Assembly: GCA_017551675.1 (NCBI GenBank)
Contig: JAFZLC010000007.1
Location: 62,001-126,000 of the forward strand
Direction of reading: 5' to 3'
From: Paludibacteraceae bacterium
Lineage (GTDB): Bacteria; Bacteroidota; Bacteroidia; Bacteroidales; Paludibacteraceae
Length of the DNA stretch: 64,000 nt
The notes under the pieces are model-generated. The model had not been told where the DNA came from and did not search any database. It saw nothing but the letters and a program-made list of their open reading frames with translations. The position numbers were made by a program, and so were the translations under genes. This document shows positions 5,977 through 13,172 of the stretch, piece by piece; position 1 is the stretch's first letter; every line of letters begins with the position of its first letter.

Positions 5977-6004
5977 GTAAATGAAACCCATTAAAAATAT
6001 AAGG

Positions 6005-6664
6005 ATGAGAAAGATTATACTACTACTTATCTCTTTGTGCGCGATGAACTTATACGCACAGGATGAAGAAGTACAGGAGTCTAAAACTTCATATTATCCT
6101 AATGGGTTTAAGATGCGATTCGATAGAATTACATTTGGAATGAATTTGGAACGTGATTGGGATGAGGGTGGTAGATACCTAAAAGTTTCGAACGGCTTTG
6201 CAATAAACTTTGGGTACCAGCCTAACAAACATCTCTATTATGGTGTAGGAACTGAACTTAGATCGACATTAGACATATTCTATATTGATTTTGCTTTGCC
6301 TATTTATGCGAATGTTCAGTTTTGCGTTTCAGATAAAGTGACATCACCTTATATCGGATTAAAGTTTGGTGGGTGTGTCAGTTTGAGGGGTGAATGTAAT
6401 GCTAAATATAAACTGTTTCAAGGGGAGAATGGAAAGTGGTTTCATGAGGATTATCAAAGTAAAACCGACCAAAAAGGATTATACATTCATCCTGAAATAG
6501 GTGTTAGAATGGGAATTGTAGGTCTCGGTATCGGTGTACCAATAACTGAACATATAAGGAATACAACCATTTATAATAGTCAAACTAAAATAGAGGAAAA
6601 GAAAAGACTAAGAAGTTTTGACGTCGGAGCTAATTTGGTATTATCTTTCCGTGTCAATCTGTAA
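6005..6664 (+). CDS. Outer-membrane beta-barrel-like protein, unknown function
   Basis: A 219-residue secreted protein from ATG 6005, which gives a clean signal peptide (MRKIILLLISLCAMNLYA, cut before QDEE). ATG 5981 would add eight residues. The mature part is rich in alternating aromatic/glycine strands (FAINFGYQPNKHLYYGVGTELR; PYIGLKFGGCVSL; GVRMGIVGLGIGVPI) and ends with an aromatic strand, VLSFRVNL, fitting an outer-membrane barrel. It follows the Cys-motif protein by 28 nt and may share its transcript. I do not recognise a specific family. Confidence 0.55.
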   Translation: MRKIILLLISLCAMNLYAQDEEVQESKTSYYPNGFKMRFDRITFGMNLERDWDEGGRYLKVSNGFAINFGYQPNKHLYYGVGTELRSTLDIFYIDFALPIYANVQFCVSDKVTSPYIGLKFGGCVSLRGECNAKYKLFQGENGKWFHEDYQSKTDQKGLYIHPEIGVRMGIVGLGIGVPITEHIRNTTIYNSQTKIEEKKRLRSFDVGANLVLSFRVNL

Positions 6665-6680
6665 TTTTATTTTCTTAGAA

Positions 6681-6712
6681 TTTGGTGAATTAATAAAAAG
6701 CACATATATTTG
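6681..6712 (+). promoter_or_regulatory. Promoter of the leu/ile operon
   Basis: TTTG at 6681-6684 and TATATTTG at 6705-6712 with 20 nt between, a full Bacteroidetes -33/-7 match. Transcription should start close to 6719. The transcript would begin with a small hairpin, AAAGAGG (6721-6727) with CCTCTTT (6738-6744), and then enter the leader peptide and attenuator. Confidence 0.75.
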
Positions 6713-6765
6713 TCCCCGAAAAAGAGGTGCATAATATCCTCTTTCAGGAAAAAAAGAAAAATAGA

Positions 6766-6819
6766 ATGAATTTTATAATTAACATTAACATTATTTTCAT
6801 TATTCTCTTGCGTAGCTAG
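6766..6819 (+). CDS. Ile/Leu-rich attenuator leader peptide
   Basis: A short frame encoding MNFIINININIFIILLRS-like sequence of 17 residues; read codon by codon it is M-N-F-I-I-N-I-N-I-I-F-I-I-L-L-R-S, then TAG. Seven of 17 codons are Ile and two are Leu, arranged as clusters. It sits between the leu promoter and a terminator/antiterminator pair. By the classical attenuation model, ribosomes stall here when charged Ile-tRNA (or Leu-tRNA) is scarce, letting the antiterminator form. Translation is not shown directly, but composition and placement are hard to explain otherwise. The start is preceded by an A-rich tract, as usual in this phylum. Confidence 0.8.
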   Translation: MNFIININIIFIILLRS

Positions 6820-6820
6820 A

Positions 6821-6893
6821 GGAAGTGAGAATGTGTGTGTTATATTTAAAGATATTGAGCCTTTCTCACTTCCCGTGAGAAAGGCTTTTTTTT
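6821..6893 (+). terminator. Attenuator: antiterminator and intrinsic terminator of the leu operon
   Basis: The terminator is a perfect 12-bp stem AGCCTTTCTCAC (6858-6869) / GTGAGAAAGGCT (6875-6886) followed by eight T. A competing antiterminator is exact over 11 bp: GGAAGTGAGAA (6821-6831) pairs with TTCTCACTTCC (6863-6873). A third pairing, ATTCTC (6802-6807, the last Ile-Leu codons) with GAGAAT (6827-6832), provides the protector helix. A ribosome at the leader stop codon (6817-6819) would cover 6821-6831 and favour termination; one stalled at Ile codons would free it. Confidence 0.85.
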
Positions 6894-6918
6894 ATGATGT
6901 TTTTTAATTTATACATAT

Positions 6919-8421
6919 ATGAGCGATAGATTATTTATTTTTGACACAACGCTTCGAGATGGAGAACAAGTACCTGGTTGCCAGTTGAATACAGTTGAGA
7001 AGATTCAGGTGGCAAAACAGCTCGAAATTTTAGGAGTTGACGTGATTGAAGCAGGATTCCCAATTTCTAGTCCTGGCGATTTCAATTCGGTAATAGAAAT
7101 ATCTAAAGCAGTAACATGGCCTACGATTTGTGCTTTAACAAGAGCTGTAGAAAAGGACATTGATGTGGCAGTGGATGCTTTGAAGTATGCAAAACACAAG
7201 CGAATACATACGGGTATTGGAACATCTGATTTGCACATTAAGTATAAATTTAATTCAACACCGGATGAGATAATTGAAAGAGCTGTCTCAGCAGTAAAAT
7301 ATGCTAAGAAATTTGTTGAGGATGTCGAATTTTATGCGGAAGATGCAGGTAGAACAGACAATGAATATTTAGCTCGTGTGACGGAAGCGGTTATCAAAGC
7401 AGGTGCTACTGTGGTTAATATTCCTGATACCACAGGATTCCGTATTCCTTTTGAGTATGGAGAGAAGATAAAATATCTGATGGAACATGTGGATGCTTTA
7501 TCTGCAGGGAAAGCAATCTTATCTACTCATTGCCATAATGATTTAGGAATGGCTACGGCCAATACAGTTGCGGGTGTTTTGAATGGTGCTCGTCAGGTGG
7601 AGGTGACTATCAATGGAGTGGGTGAGCGAGCTGGAAACACTTCATTGGAAGAGGTTGCCATGATCTTTAAAACTCATCCTGATTTAAATATTGAGACCAA
7701 TATTAACACGACTAAGATATATCAGACAAGTCGAATGGTTTCAAGCTTAATGAATATGCCTGTTCAGCCGAATAAGGCAATCGTTGGTAAGAATGCGTTT
7801 GCTCATTCTTCTGGAATTCACCAAGATGGTGTTCTGAAAAATGCGGAAACCTATGAGATTATGGATCCTAAGGATGTCGGAATTGATGATAATGCAATTG
7901 TTTTAACTGCTAGAAGCGGACGTGCGGCATTAAAGCATCGCTTACATGTTTTAGGTGTTGATGTTGATGGAGAAAAACTCGATTCACTCTATGAGGAGTT
8001 CTTAAAATTAGCGGATAAGAAGAAGGAGTTGAATGATGATGATATCCTTATGCTTGCTGGTGTGGAAAGAACGAGAGACCATCATATCAAACTTGACTTC
8101 TTACAGGTTACAAGTGGTTTAGGTGTTCGTCCGGTTGCTAGTATCGGTCTGGACATTGCAGGAGAAAAATTTGTTGCTGCATCATCTGGAAATGGTCCTG
8201 TAGACGCTGCAATCAAGGCTCTGAAGGTGATTATAAAAAGAAATATGCTACTTAAGGAATTTACGATACAAGCCATTAATAAAGGAAGCGATGATATCGG
8301 AAAAGTTCACATGCAGGTTGAACATGATGGAGCTGTTTACTATGGATTTGGCGCAAACACTGATATCGTGACGGCTTCTGTGGAGGCATATATTGATTGT
8401 ATTAATAAGTTTAGAAAGTAG
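6919..8421 (+). CDS. leuA: 2-isopropylmalate synthase
   Basis: Condenses acetyl-CoA with 2-oxoisovalerate, the first step of leucine synthesis. The 500-residue protein has the TIM-barrel signature [12 protein letters not shown] near the N-terminus, the metal-binding [14 protein letters not shown] segment, [22 protein letters not shown], the [11 protein letters not shown] motif and a C-terminal LeuA allosteric domain (from about 375; [20 protein letters not shown]). It is the first gene after the attenuator. Among the two synthases of this operon this one looks like a conventional bacterial LeuA. Confidence 0.93.
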
Positions 8422-8444: not shown

Positions 8445-9842
8445 ATGGGAAAAACATTATTTGATAAAATATGGGATGCACATGTGGTGTCTCAGATTGA
8501 GGATGGTCCTACTATGTTGTACATAGACCGCCTTTACGGTCATGAGGTGACCACACCTCAGGCTTTTGACACTCTTAGAGACAAGGGTATAAAGGCTTTC
8601 CGTCCAGAACGTATCGTGGCAATGCCTGATCATAACACTCCATCAGACCAACAGGATGAAATTCATGATCCTGTGGGAAGAACTCAGGTGGAGACTTTGA
8701 AGGCAAATTGTCAAGAGTTCAATATTAAACACTTCCCTATGGGGTCGAAAGACAATGGAATTATCCATGTCGTTGGACCGGAAAAGGCACTCTCCCTTCC
8801 TGGAATGACTATTGTTTGTGGCGATTCTCACACCTCTACTCATGGAGCTGTTGGTGCGATTGCAATGGGTATCGGTACAAGTGAAGTGGCTCAAGTTTTG
8901 GCTTCTCAATGTATCCTTCAATCCAAACCTAAGACAATGCGTATTAACATAGAGGGTACTTTGAAACCTGGTGTGACAGCCAAGGACGTTGCTCTTTATA
9001 TCATGGCTAAAATGACAACATCTGGGGCAACTGGTTATGCGGTTGAGTATGCAGGTAGTACAATTCGTAATATGTCGATGGAAGGCCGTTTGACACTTTC
9101 CAACTTGTCAATCGAAATGGGCTCTCGTGCTGGATTGATTGCACCGGATGAAACCACTTTTGCCTATTTGAAAGGTAGAGAGTATGCGCCTAAAGGAGCG
9201 GAATGGGATAGTGCTGTTGAACGTTGGAAAATGTTGAAGAGCGATGAAGATGCGGTATTTGATAAAGAGGTCACTTATCGTGCGGAAGATATTGAACCTC
9301 GTATCACTTATGGTACGAATCCAGGCGCTGGTATCGCAATTAATGAGTCGATACCTACTTTGAATGAGATTCCATCTTCAGAAAAGACTCAGTTCGTGAA
9401 TATGTTGGAATATATGCAGTTCAAAGAGGGACAAAAATTGGAGGGTGTCCCCGTTGATTATGTATTCTTGGGTGCATGTACGAATGGTAGAATTGAAGAT
9501 TTCCGTGCCTTTGCTTCCATTGTTAAAGGAAGAAAGAAGGCTCCTAATGTGGTTGCATGGTTGGTACCAGGCTCATGGTTGGTTCGTCAGCAAATCATAG
9601 ACGAGGGAATTGACCTTATTTTGAAAGAGGCTGGCTTTGAACTGAGATTGCCATCATGTTCTTCTTGTTTGGCCATGAACCCAGATAAGGTACCGGCAGG
9701 TAAATTGGCTATTTCAACCAGCAACCGTAATTTCGTCGGACGTCAGGGGCCGGGTGCACGTACTGTTTTAGCTTCACCATTGGTGGTTGCGGCAAGTGCA
9801 ATTACGGGAAAAATCACAGATCCAAGAACATTTCTAAATTGA
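8445..9842 (+). CDS. leuC: 3-isopropylmalate dehydratase, large subunit
   Basis: Aconitase-family [4Fe-4S] enzyme that isomerises 2- to 3-isopropylmalate with LeuD; the same pair can act on citramalate. At 465 residues it is a typical LeuC. Visible are [25 protein letters not shown], the cluster cysteine in [14 protein letters not shown], and the C-terminal [14 protein letters not shown] with the other two cluster cysteines, then [14 protein letters not shown]. It lies 23 nt after leuA and 7 nt before leuD. Confidence 0.96.
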
Positions 9843-9849
9843 GAAGAAT

Positions 9850-10476
9850 ATGAACAAACAGAAATTTGATATAATACAGTCAACATGTATTCCTATTGGA
9901 ATAGACAATTGTAATACTGATTTGATTATCCCAGCTCGTTATTTGGCGAGTACGACCCGTGATCCTAAATTCTTCGGAGATGCTTTTATGCATGATCTTC
10001 GTTATGATGAAAATGGAAATGTTAAGTCGGATTTTGTAATGAACCATCCCGATTTTTCAGAGGCTCCACATGAGGGTGTTCATGAGATTATTGTCGGTGG
10101 ACAGAACTGGGGTTCGGGTTCAAGTCGAGAACATGCAGCATGGTCAATTGCAGGTTATGGCGTACGTGTGGTGATTTCCAATAGTTTTGCGGATATCCAC
10201 AGAAACAACCTTTTGAATTGCTTTGTGCTTCCGGTAGTTGTCAGTCGTGAGTTTCAACAGGAACTATTCAAAAGCATAGAAGAAAATCCTAAGATGCAAG
10301 TTAGGGTTGACGTGCCTAACCAAACAGTAACCAATCTGACTACAGGTCATAGTGAACATTTTGAAATTAATAGTTACAAGAAATATTGTTTGATGAATGC
10401 TTTGGATGATATCGATTTCTTGCTTGAGAATAAGAAAAAAATAGAGGAATGGGAACAGAAAAGGAAAGATATGTAA
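9850..10476 (+). CDS. leuD: 3-isopropylmalate dehydratase, small subunit
   Basis: Swivelling-domain partner of LeuC. The 208-residue sequence has the DLIIPARYLAST segment, the GGQNWGSGSSREHAAWSIAGYGVRVVIS motif that contacts the substrate, and SFADIHRNNLLNCFVLP. The last 28 nt overlap the start of the downstream synthase gene, implying translational coupling. Confidence 0.96.
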   Translation: MNKQKFDIIQSTCIPIGIDNCNTDLIIPARYLASTTRDPKFFGDAFMHDLRYDENGNVKSDFVMNHPDFSEAPHEGVHEIIVGGQNWGSGSSREHAAWSIAGYGVRVVISNSFADIHRNNLLNCFVLPVVVSREFQQELFKSIEENPKMQVRVDVPNQTVTNLTTGHSEHFEINSYKKYCLMNALDDIDFLLENKKKIEEWEQKRKDM

Positions 10477-12020
10477 CAATAATGGACACGACACTCCGAG
10501 ATGGTGAACAAACCAACGGTGTTAGTTTTGTCCCTCATGAAAAATTGATATTGGCTCGTACCCTTCTCTTGGATGCTAATGTGGATCGAATAGAGGTGGC
10601 ATCAGCTCGAGTTAGCGATGGAGAAAAAGAGGCCGTCTCAATGATCTGTAATTGGGCGAAGGGGGTAGGTTGCCTTCATCGTATCGAAGTGTTGGGCTTT
10701 GTTGATGGTACTTCAAGTATAGATTGGATTAAGGAGACGGGATGTCAGTGCGTTAATTTGCTTGTGAAAGGATCGCAAAGACATTGTACCGAGCAATTGA
10801 AAAAGAACCCAGAAGAACATCTCCATGATATTTTGGAGGCTCTCTCTTATGCGCAAAAATTAGGATTGCGTGTTAACCTCTATTTGGAGGATTGGAGTGG
10901 TGGTATAACAGATAGTACGGAGTATGTATTCTTTTTGATGGATCATCTTAAAGATCTGAAGATTGAACATTTCATGCTTCCAGATACGTTGGGCATACTG
11001 ACTCCAGATCAGACCTATCGTTGCGTAAAGTTGATGACCGATCGTTATCCTAATCTCTCATTCGACTTTCATGCGCATAATGATTATGATTTTGCTGTAG
11101 CTAATTCGATGGCAGCTGTGCAAGCTGGTGCCAATGGATTGCATACAACCATCAACGGATTGGGTGAACGCGCAGGTAATGCTCCTTTGGCAAGTGTTCA
11201 AGCTGCATTGAAAGACCATTATCACGTTCAAACTGGTATCAACGAATCTAAATTAATGGAGATATGCCATTTGGTCGAGTCGTATAGTTGCATTGCAATA
11301 CCACCTAATAGACCTGTTGTGGGTGAGAGTGTCTTTACACAAGTGGCTGGTGTTCATGCGGATGGTGATAACAAATCGGGATTGTATTGCAATGACTTGC
11401 TCCCTGAACGTTTTGGTAGAAAGCGTGAATATGCTTTGGGTAAAAATAGCGGAAGAGCTAATATCCTTAAAAACCTCGAGGAGTTGGGACTTGCCCTTAC
11501 ACCTGAACAGACTAAGGCTGTCACAAAACGAATCATCGAATTGGGTGATAAAAAGGAACTCGTCACGCAAGAAGATCTTCCTTATATAGTGGCCGACGTG
11601 GTTAAGCATTCTGCTCCTGATGATCATGTGAAGTTGGATAGCTATATGGTGAGTACGAGTTATGGTTTGAAACCATTGGCTAGTGTTCGTCTTGAAATCG
11701 GAGGAAAAAGTTATGAGGAGACTGCAACGGGTGACGGACAATACGATGCGTTCGTTCGTGCGGTAAGACATATCTATCGCGATAAACTGCAGCGCAAGTT
11801 CCCTTGGTTGACGAACTATGTTGTGAGTATTCCTCCTGGAGGTCGAACAGACGCTTTGGTGCAAACCAGTATTTCATGGACATTCGATGGGAAAAGTTAT
11901 CGAACAAGAGGACTGGATGCCGATCAGATGGAGGCAGCTATCAAAGCTACTTTTAAAATGTTGAACCTAATAGAAGACTTGTACACACAAGCGCCAGAGA
12001 GAACGAAAGAAAATAAATAA
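10449..12020 (+). CDS. 2-isopropylmalate/citramalate synthase family protein
   Basis: A second, divergent 523-residue member of the LeuA family. It has the barrel signature [12 protein letters not shown] (residues 13-24), metal-ligand segment FDFHAHNDYDFAVANS, INGLGERAGNAPLASV and a C-terminal LeuA-type regulatory domain (from about 380; LDSYMVSTSYGLKPLASVRL). Its active-site surroundings differ from leuA. In Bacteroides this position holds a second synthase; (R)-citramalate synthase (pyruvate + acetyl-CoA, leading to 2-oxobutyrate and isoleucine) is my preferred reading because the operon leader is Ile-rich, but this is inference. It overlaps leuD by 28 nt. Confidence 0.75.
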   Translation: MGTEKERYVTIMDTTLRDGEQTNGVSFVPHEKLILARTLLLDANVDRIEVASARVSDGEKEAVSMICNWAKGVGCLHRIEVLGFVDGTSSIDWIKETGCQCVNLLVKGSQRHCTEQLKKNPEEHLHDILEALSYAQKLGLRVNLYLEDWSGGITDSTEYVFFLMDHLKDLKIEHFMLPDTLGILTPDQTYRCVKLMTDRYPNLSFDFHAHNDYDFAVANSMAAVQAGANGLHTTINGLGERAGNAPLASVQAALKDHYHVQTGINESKLMEICHLVESYSCIAIPPNRPVVGESVFTQVAGVHADGDNKSGLYCNDLLPERFGRKREYALGKNSGRANILKNLEELGLALTPEQTKAVTKRIIELGDKKELVTQEDLPYIVADVVKHSAPDDHVKLDSYMVSTSYGLKPLASVRLEIGGKSYEETATGDGQYDAFVRAVRHIYRDKLQRKFPWLTNYVVSIPPGGRTDALVQTSISWTFDGKSYRTRGLDADQMEAAIKATFKMLNLIEDLYTQAPERTKENK

Positions 12021-12039: not shown

Positions 12040-13101
12040 ATGAAATTGAAAATTGCTGTATTACCAGGAGACGGAATAGGTCCTGAGATCTCCGAACAGG
12101 GTGTGAATGTAATGTCTGCCGTCTGTGAAAAGTTTGGACATGAGGTGAGTTATACCTATGCTTTGTGTGGCGCAGATGCCATAGAAAAAGTGGTTGACCC
12201 ATTCCCAGATGATACATTTAAAATCTGTATGGATTCTGATGCCGTACTTTTTTCGGCAGTAGGAGATCCTAAGTATGATAATGACCCCACTTCAAAAGTT
12301 CGTCCTGAACAAGGATTGTTGGCTATGCGTAAAAAGCTAGGATTGTTCGCTAATATCCGTCCTATTCAAACCTTCGATTGCTTGGTTCATAAGAGTCCGT
12401 TGAAGGATGAATTGGTAAAAGGTGCTGATTTTATTTGCTTCCGTGAACTAACTGGAGGTATGTATTTTGGAGAAAAGAAGGAGGGTGAAGATTTCGCATA
12501 CGATACCAATGCATATAGTCGGATGGAAGTGGAACGCATATTGAAGGAGGCTTATAAATATGCAAGAATGCGGAAAAAACATCTGACAGTGGTCGATAAG
12601 GCAAATGTGTTGGCTTCGTCTCGTTTGTGGAGAAAAGTGGCACAGGATATGGCAGTCAATTATCCTGATGTGACCACCGATTTTATGTATGTTGACAATG
12701 CGTCTATGAGAATGATACAGGAGCCAACATTCTTTGATGTGATGGTGACGGAGAACACATTCGGTGATATCCTTACAGACGAAGGATCATGTATTACAGG
12801 ATCGATGGGCTTACTTCCTTCTGCATCAACGGGAGAGCACACACCAGTGTTCGAACCTGTTCATGGATCATGGCCTCAGGCAAAAGGATTGAACATAGCT
12901 AATCCATTGGCTCAGATTCTTTCCGTTGCCATGTTGTTTGAATATTTTGATTTAAAAGAAGAAGGAAGATTGGTTCGTGAGGCTGTTGATGCTTCTTTGG
13001 ATGCAAAAGTCCGTACACCAGAGATTCAGGTTGAAGGTGGCGCTAAATATGGTACCAAAGAGGTGGGTGCATGGATTGTTGATTATATTAAGAAGAAATA
13101 A
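12040..13101 (+). CDS. leuB: 3-isopropylmalate dehydrogenase
   Basis: NAD-dependent oxidative decarboxylase that gives 2-oxoisocaproate; homologues also act on 3-methylmalate in the citramalate route. The 353-residue sequence has [10 protein letters not shown] at the N-terminus, [21 protein letters not shown], the [10 protein letters not shown] substrate loop, [18 protein letters not shown] and [10 protein letters not shown], then [13 protein letters not shown] for NAD binding. It is the last gene of the operon and is followed by a strong terminator. Confidence 0.96.
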
Positions 13102-13136: not shown

Positions 13137-13172
13137 AAGGACATGCTCAACAAGAGCGTGTCCTTTTGTTTT
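13137..13172 (+). terminator. Intrinsic terminator of the leu operon
   Basis: Stem AAGGACATGCTC (13137-13148) / GAGCGTGTCCTT (13154-13165), 12 bp with one G-U pair, loop AACAA, then TTGTTTT. It ends the leuB transcript just before the convergent gene on the minus strand. Confidence 0.88.

Follow-up and report, generated by a model that had tools for sequence, protein, structure and literature searches.

Positions 6681–6893 of the window, the 64,000-nt stretch of Paludibacteraceae DNA analyzed here, read with a probability of about 0.93 as a classical ribosome-mediated transcription attenuator that tunes the leuA-leuC-leuD-cimA-leuB operon to how well tRNA-Ile and tRNA-Leu are charged. This reading builds on the parts, their conservation, the alternative helices and the operon content, all taken from sequence. 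From these we infer leader translation, ribosome stalling, termination in the cell and the CimA activity. An earlier note on this DNA had proposed an Ile/Leu attenuator of the leu operon, and the proposal is supported by the conservation, the covariation of both alternative helices and the simulated ribosome positions.

The source genome of the window amounts to 3.3 Mb in 58 contigs. By the LeuA sequence, its closest named relatives are Bacteroidales, Bacteroidaceae and Prevotellaceae records. The features of the leader and the operon are collected in Table 1. Upstream of the promoter ends a gene of the same strand without an NCBIfam match (5981–6664, +).

Table 1. Leader and operon features, in window coordinates
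Feature	Position	Strand	Details
Promoter	6681..6712	+	TTTG 6681-6684 and TATATTTG 6705-6712
5' hairpin of the leader RNA, 7 bp	6721..6744	+	From the fold; outside the conserved core
Leader peptide ORF	6766..6819	+	MNFIININIIFIILLRS; 17 residues, 7 Ile and 2 Leu; stop TAG 6817-6819
Protector	6802..6832	+	ATTCTC 6802-6807 pairs with GAGAAT 6827-6832, 6 bp
Antiterminator 5' strand	6821..6831	+	GGAAGTGAGAA; pairs with 6863-6873, 11/11 Watson-Crick
GTGTG segment	6833..6840	+	3' of the antiterminator strand; pairs with upstream leader codons in the window fold
Intrinsic terminator	6857..6893	+	Stem 6858-6886 of 12 bp and one outer G-T pair; loop TTCCC; eight T 6886-6893
leuA, 2-isopropylmalate synthase	6919..8421	+	NCBIfam NF002086 and TIGR00973 above cut-off
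leuC, isopropylmalate dehydratase large subunit	8445..9842	+	TIGR00170 above cut-off
leuD, isopropylmalate dehydratase small subunit	9850..10476	+	TIGR00171 above cut-off
cimA-like, (R)-citramalate synthase homologue, fourth gene of the operon	10449..12020	+	Best NCBIfam family NF042433 CimA; 3ble
leuB, 3-isopropylmalate dehydrogenase	12040..13101	+	TIGR00169 above cut-off
Terminator-like hairpin 3' of leuB, likely operon end	13137..13165	+	–

The full promoter claimed before lies where it was placed, and its TATATTTG fits the TAnnTTTG -7 box that a passage of PMC9723704 gives for the phylum. Transcription would start at about 6718–6720. A generic -35/-10 scan gave sites no more numerous than in shuffles. 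The hairpin at 6721–6744 was considered as an attenuator part and set aside. Among 13 relatives checked, only L004 and L005 share it, and it is absent from L003 and the others. Elsewhere in the window, at 2294–2327, Rfam reports the S4-Bacteroidia ribosomal protein leader (RF03139, 48.7 bits).

The peptide, 12-bp terminator and exact 11-bp competing antiterminator of the earlier note are all confirmed, the terminator with an outer G-T pair in addition. The control codons of the peptide run from Ile4 to Leu15 (6775–6810). Among the 1167 short ATG ORFs of 10–40 aa on both strands of the window, none but the leader ORF reaches an Ile fraction of 7/17. The antiterminator partner sits within the terminator 5' arm and loop. 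Three of the five features that define a leader-peptide attenuator are found, namely the ORF rich in control codons, the terminator and the antiterminator that excludes it.

The strands of the 6-bp protector are complementary in sequence, but the minimum-energy fold replaces the pairing by a longer imperfect helix that covers most of the leader ORF. A protector helix does form in the window fold and decides the outcome of the ribosome simulation, while the RNAalifold consensus of 48 aligned leaders shows the terminator alone. The whole leader folds at -51.8 kcal/mol versus -30.8 (sd 3.7) for its shuffles (z -5.7; 0/200 shuffles as good), and the terminator alone has a z of -7.05 versus shuffles. 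The GTGTG segment recurs across genera in the alignment, though the terminator and the antiterminator could each form without it.

We folded the transcript with a ribosome-sized block that reaches, counted from the first base of the A-site codon, 17 nt upstream and 14 nt downstream, a size taken from the E. coli ribosome as an assumption. The transcript ended at 6875, the point where the antiterminator can form and the terminator cannot yet. The antiterminator probability there is 0.04 without a ribosome and 0.00 with one at the stop codon. It rises to 0.95 for stalls at Ile4 and Ile7 and to 0.99 at Ile10, Ile13 and Leu14, and is 0.78 at Leu15. From Ile4 to Leu14, every codon tested thus frees the antiterminator to nearly the same degree when the ribosome stalls there. 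In this model, the ribosome positions reproduce the classical attenuator logic, including the termination without ribosome loading. In the full-length equilibrium fold, the terminator is favored in all eight cases (0.72 for Ile10, 0.91 for Ile13 and 0.97–0.99 elsewhere), so the choice would have to be made kinetically during transcription.

The proposed course of events is as follows. RNA polymerase would start near 6719, and a ribosome would follow and translate the leader peptide. When Ile or Leu is scarce, the ribosome would stall on the Ile-Leu run and break the protector, and the freed 6821–6831 would pair with 6863–6873, block the terminator and let the operon be transcribed. When both are ample, the ribosome would reach the stop at 6817–6819 and cover 6821–6831, the terminator would form and transcription would end near 6893. 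With no ribosome loaded, the protector would stay and transcription would likewise end.

The comparison of leaders and stems in relatives, which the earlier note had suggested, finds the device before leuA in many Bacteroidales, so the absence that would have counted against the proposal does not hold; it is also missing from many relatives. The leuA loci were drawn from relatives (30 loci; 42 of the 61 genomes gave a match) and, as the best 80, from named genomes, two sets that may overlap in species. By script, a terminator with a competing antiterminator occurs in 68 of 108 upstream regions, and in 61 after the removal of seven without a homologous leader (L108, L067, L087, L055, L040, L041 and L052). 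Forty-eight representatives were aligned by sequence, with near-duplicates removed and L002 in place of L003.

In this alignment, the terminator has 93.4% of its cells paired and changes on both sides in 9 of 13 pairs, and the antiterminator 78.5% and 7 of 11. On five measures, the observed terminator values are reached by 0, 0, 0, 2 and 0 of 500 shuffles and the antiterminator values by 0, 14, 0, 26 and 0. The antiterminator exceeds every slid control on the cells paired, the pairs changed on both sides and the pair types. It falls below a slid control on the covariation score (0.175 versus 0.186 at slide -1) and on the changed cells (19 versus 20 at slide +1). When antiterminator arms are swapped between sequences, the own pairing is better than the mean of the differing swaps in 40/48 and in the top tenth in 19/48; since the arms are highly conserved, this test is only moderately discriminating, and we rely on the covariation counts above.

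A covariance model built from 33 of the 48 has a single strong hit in the window's genome (E 3e-10), and the next two have E values of 0.06 (the same site on the other strand) and 0.29. Of 150 genomes of the family, 95 have a match at E ≤0.01, some of which are in the model. A further 100 stretches extend the leader picture across the order. Several other families retain the architecture, but their sequences have diverged to forms such as GTGAGAATGGT/ACCATTCTCAC. Over 6660–6930, Rfam has no family at its gathering score. Below threshold, the lowest E value there belongs to IR_84 (26 bits versus 51), and the sole amino-acid leader is Phe_leader (17.3 versus 55).

The fourth gene of the operon likely explains why a leu operon carries Ile codons. 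CimA catalyzes the first step of the threonine-independent isoleucine synthesis, and citramalate passes through LeuC, LeuD and LeuB to 2-oxobutyrate, the Ile precursor. The protein encoded at 10449–12020 aligns to positions 2–510 of the 514 of NF042433 with 620.9 bits, below the cut-off of 950, and its best solved relative is the Leptospira citramalate synthase (3ble, E 5e-111). The residues Leu81, Leu104 and Tyr144, which line the pyruvate pocket of the Leptospira enzyme, are identical in this protein when its alignment to 3ble is read by eye with a 12-residue chain offset inferred from Arg16/Asp17.

Given this CimA homologue, the operon probably serves both Leu and Ile, and Ile would be sensed for that reason. 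The threonine ammonia-lyase models TIGR02079 and TIGR01127 have no match at cut-off in the window's genome and nine weak matches each. Of three weak matches inspected, one is TrpB, one is TrpB-like and one is closest to cysteine/cystathionine beta-synthases. IlvA and CimA are alternative first steps in a passage of a gut-genome survey (PMC9026213). With the CimA homologue present and no threonine ammonia-lyase at cut-off by the two models, the leu operon may be the main route to Ile in this genome. The earlier note had found the Ile dominance at odds with the name of the operon; the peptide is indeed Ile-rich, but the citramalate synthase homologue had been overlooked as its likely cause.

The link was surveyed in 181 leuA loci. 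L107 was excluded for too little upstream DNA, and the script called 91 leaders in the other 180. We dropped L052, L067, L087 and L117 as false and also L150, leader-like with one Ile, because a contig end cuts its operon. For L089, another ORF was chosen manually, and the peptides of nine loci were assigned by eye (L126, L158, L167, L180, L182, L190, L195, L202 and L207), two of which, L180 and L182, are also script calls. The final set has 93 leaders, 67 with cimA in the operon, 20 without and 6 unknown, hence 87 of known operon type. L158 and L167, which have no leuC behind leuA, and L035, with cimA 3.2 kb off, count as without cimA.

No leader was counted in the other 87 of the 180 upstream regions, about 34 of which were read by eye and the rest by script. 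They include L209, a cimA operon of the same genus as the window, and L204 (= L010), which may hold a weak leader. Several rumen genomes read by eye show a promoter-like site close to leuA and no leader. L184 and L186, without cimA, were left out, as no clean terminator was seen. L184 (G278) has a 43-codon ORF upstream of leuA that includes one or more Ile codons and then finishes in long stretches of Leu codons. Its genome has no clear CimA match, and the ORF is possibly another mode of control. In L187 (G135), leuA-leuC-leuD-leuB is followed by the threonine ammonia-lyase gene ilvA, not cimA, and no leader was found.

The 67 leaders with cimA have on average 4.63 Ile (range 2–8) and 4.45 Leu codons versus 1.00 Ile (0–4) and 6.00 Leu in the 20 without. 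In a phylogenetic regression (PGLS), cimA adds 3.5–3.6 Ile codons (p 4e-13 with lambda set to 0.8, p 8e-7 with lambda set to 1) and goes with about 1.6 fewer Leu codons. On a quick LeuA tree of the 87, made with no mixture model, the cimA status changes 8 times and the state of at least three Ile codons 10 times. The contrasts are fewer than the rows, because much of the set without cimA is one group of related rumen genomes. Five well-supported independent pairs give on average 4.5 concordant, 0 opposite and 0.5 without difference, with a median sign-test p of 0.0625, where 0.05 is unreachable with fewer than six pairs.

A CimA search in 11 genomes turned up nothing beyond LeuA and short weak matches in five of them (G061, G236, G044, G278 and G149). 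Leader Ile codons number 0 in G061, 1 in G236 and 0 in G044, and no leader was counted in G149. An exception is L190, which has no cimA or leuB in its operon and yet four Ile codons; its genome has a cimA-like match with one in-frame stop on another contig. In L035 and L049, which belong to a group with Leu-rich leaders, cimA lies close by but is not part of the operon, and the leaders have 0 and 1 Ile codons, respectively. These two suggest that cimA in the operon fits better than cimA in the genome.

The hairpin might only terminate the upstream gene or make a small RNA, with the peptide incidental. That gene does end on the same strand at 6664, and a terminated transcript of about 175 nt would resemble a small RNA, but a promoter-like site separates the gene from the hairpin, and TAnnTTTG lies within 75 nt 5' of the leader ATG in 76 of the 87 leaders versus a shuffled mean of 5.4 and maximum of 13. 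The leader peptide, the rare Leu codons and the covarying antiterminator moreover recur 5' of leuA in relatives, and we regard this explanation as very improbable. We give equally little weight to direct binding of a ligand, tRNA or protein by the leader RNA, as in a riboswitch, a T-box or with a Leu-responsive protein, which would make peptide translation unneeded. The GTGTG segment, conserved in many relatives, could serve as the contact site for such binding. However, no Rfam family reaches its gathering score in the leader region, and the Ile, Leu and Val codon content varies with the operon type.

Somewhat less remote, though still unlikely, is that the attenuator mainly senses Leu charging as the enterobacterial leuL does, with Ile codons that largely serve as hydrophobic filler. 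In its favor, each of the 87 leaders has two or more Leu codons and eight have no Ile, in a set for which the script favored Leu-rich ORFs. CTA makes up 128/418 of the leader Leu codons (31%) versus 56/2826 (2%) in leuA of the same loci, its share being higher in the leader in 70/87 loci and lower in 11/87, though the two of the window are CTC and TTG. Against it, the run in the window is of Ile with the two Leu at its end only, the modeled antiterminator probability from the Leu15 stall is lower than those from the Ile stalls, and the Ile number tracks cimA in the PGLS. The Ile-tRNA charging, the main signal in the earlier note, would be a plausible one, but the simulated stalls from Ile4 to Leu14 differ little in their effect. 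Leader Ile codons are ATT in 244/330 versus 1359/3482 in leuA, and some of the leader codon bias may stem from base pairs that the ORF forms. Ile+Leu is highest in frame in 85/87 leaders, partly by construction, since the script chose the ATG ORF with the most Leu.

Beyond leuA, we hand-picked 20 further model sites in other genera of the family among the matches listed (L244–L263), 15 of which precede ilvD, 4 leuA and 1 was not assigned. The 15 ilvD leaders have on average 4.33 Val, 4.20 Leu and 2.33 Ile codons, whereas the 67 leu-cimA leaders have 0.85 Val. By script, ilvD of the window's genome has no such leader within 350 nt. Upstream of its hisG (L213, G000:C7), the short ORF MFNMKHHHNHHHYQR, likely a his leader, is followed by a terminator and a matching antiterminator. 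This genome thus probably relies on peptide attenuation at more than one operon.

Among known systems, the E. coli ilvGMEDA and ilvBN leaders each sense more than one branched-chain amino acid, and a paper on the former is titled 'Multivalent translational control ... ilvGEDA'. The window leader would be similarly multivalent, but Val is rare in the leu-cimA leaders. E. coli leuL uses the rare CUA codon, and Bacteroid-trp is a trp leader. Vitreschak et al. in 2004 reportedly listed candidate attenuators of branched-chain operons, some in Bacteroidetes/Chlorobi, which may cover this leader class. Like leuL of leuLABCD, the window has a control-codon peptide, a terminator and a competing antiterminator. 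Unlike the E. coli system, its leader is Ile-dominated with a Bacteroidota promoter, the order is leuA-C-D-cimA-B and no Rfam leader family matches.

The leuL peptide has four adjacent regulatory leucine codons, as a passage of PMC3783181 states. Going by title and start of the abstract, PMC5794164 describes a leucine-rich attenuator peptide of the branched-chain synthesis in Staphylococcus aureus, hence a peptide of the same kind in another phylum. Attenuation had been called less documented in this phylum, but it is not without precedent there. Strong transcriptome-based clues for leader-peptide attenuation before amino-acid operons come from Flavobacterium psychrophilum, where phylum and mechanism are shared; leu operons, Ile codons and a cimA link go unmentioned in the passage concerned (PMC9723704). 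Short ORFs reminiscent of leader peptides appear in a passage on Bacteroides (PMC7366714). Bacteroid-trp (RF01692), listed for Bacteroidetes in a passage of PMC2864571, belongs to a different operon and has no match in the window leader. Our literature search, with most subscription papers beyond its reach, found no title on this leader or on the Ile codon-cimA link.

Attenuation in Bacteroidota is thus not new, and what appears new from these sequence comparisons is the retuning of the control codons to the operon content, a modest finding. It comes with a full peptide-attenuator anatomy in Bacteroidales and with an alignment and a covariance model for a leader that Rfam does not match at threshold. 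We consider it fairly probable that the Bacteroidales carry a single family of homologous branched-chain attenuators and that evolution has retuned its control codons to Ile and Leu with leu-cimA, to Leu alone without cimA and to Val and Leu before ilvD.

The link of the Ile codons with cimA is a natural experiment on sensor specificity that follows operon content. The leader could serve as a simple predictor of whether a leu operon also serves isoleucine. If the family is as proposed, the leader codons would record which amino acids the operon serves and which route to Ile the bacterium uses.
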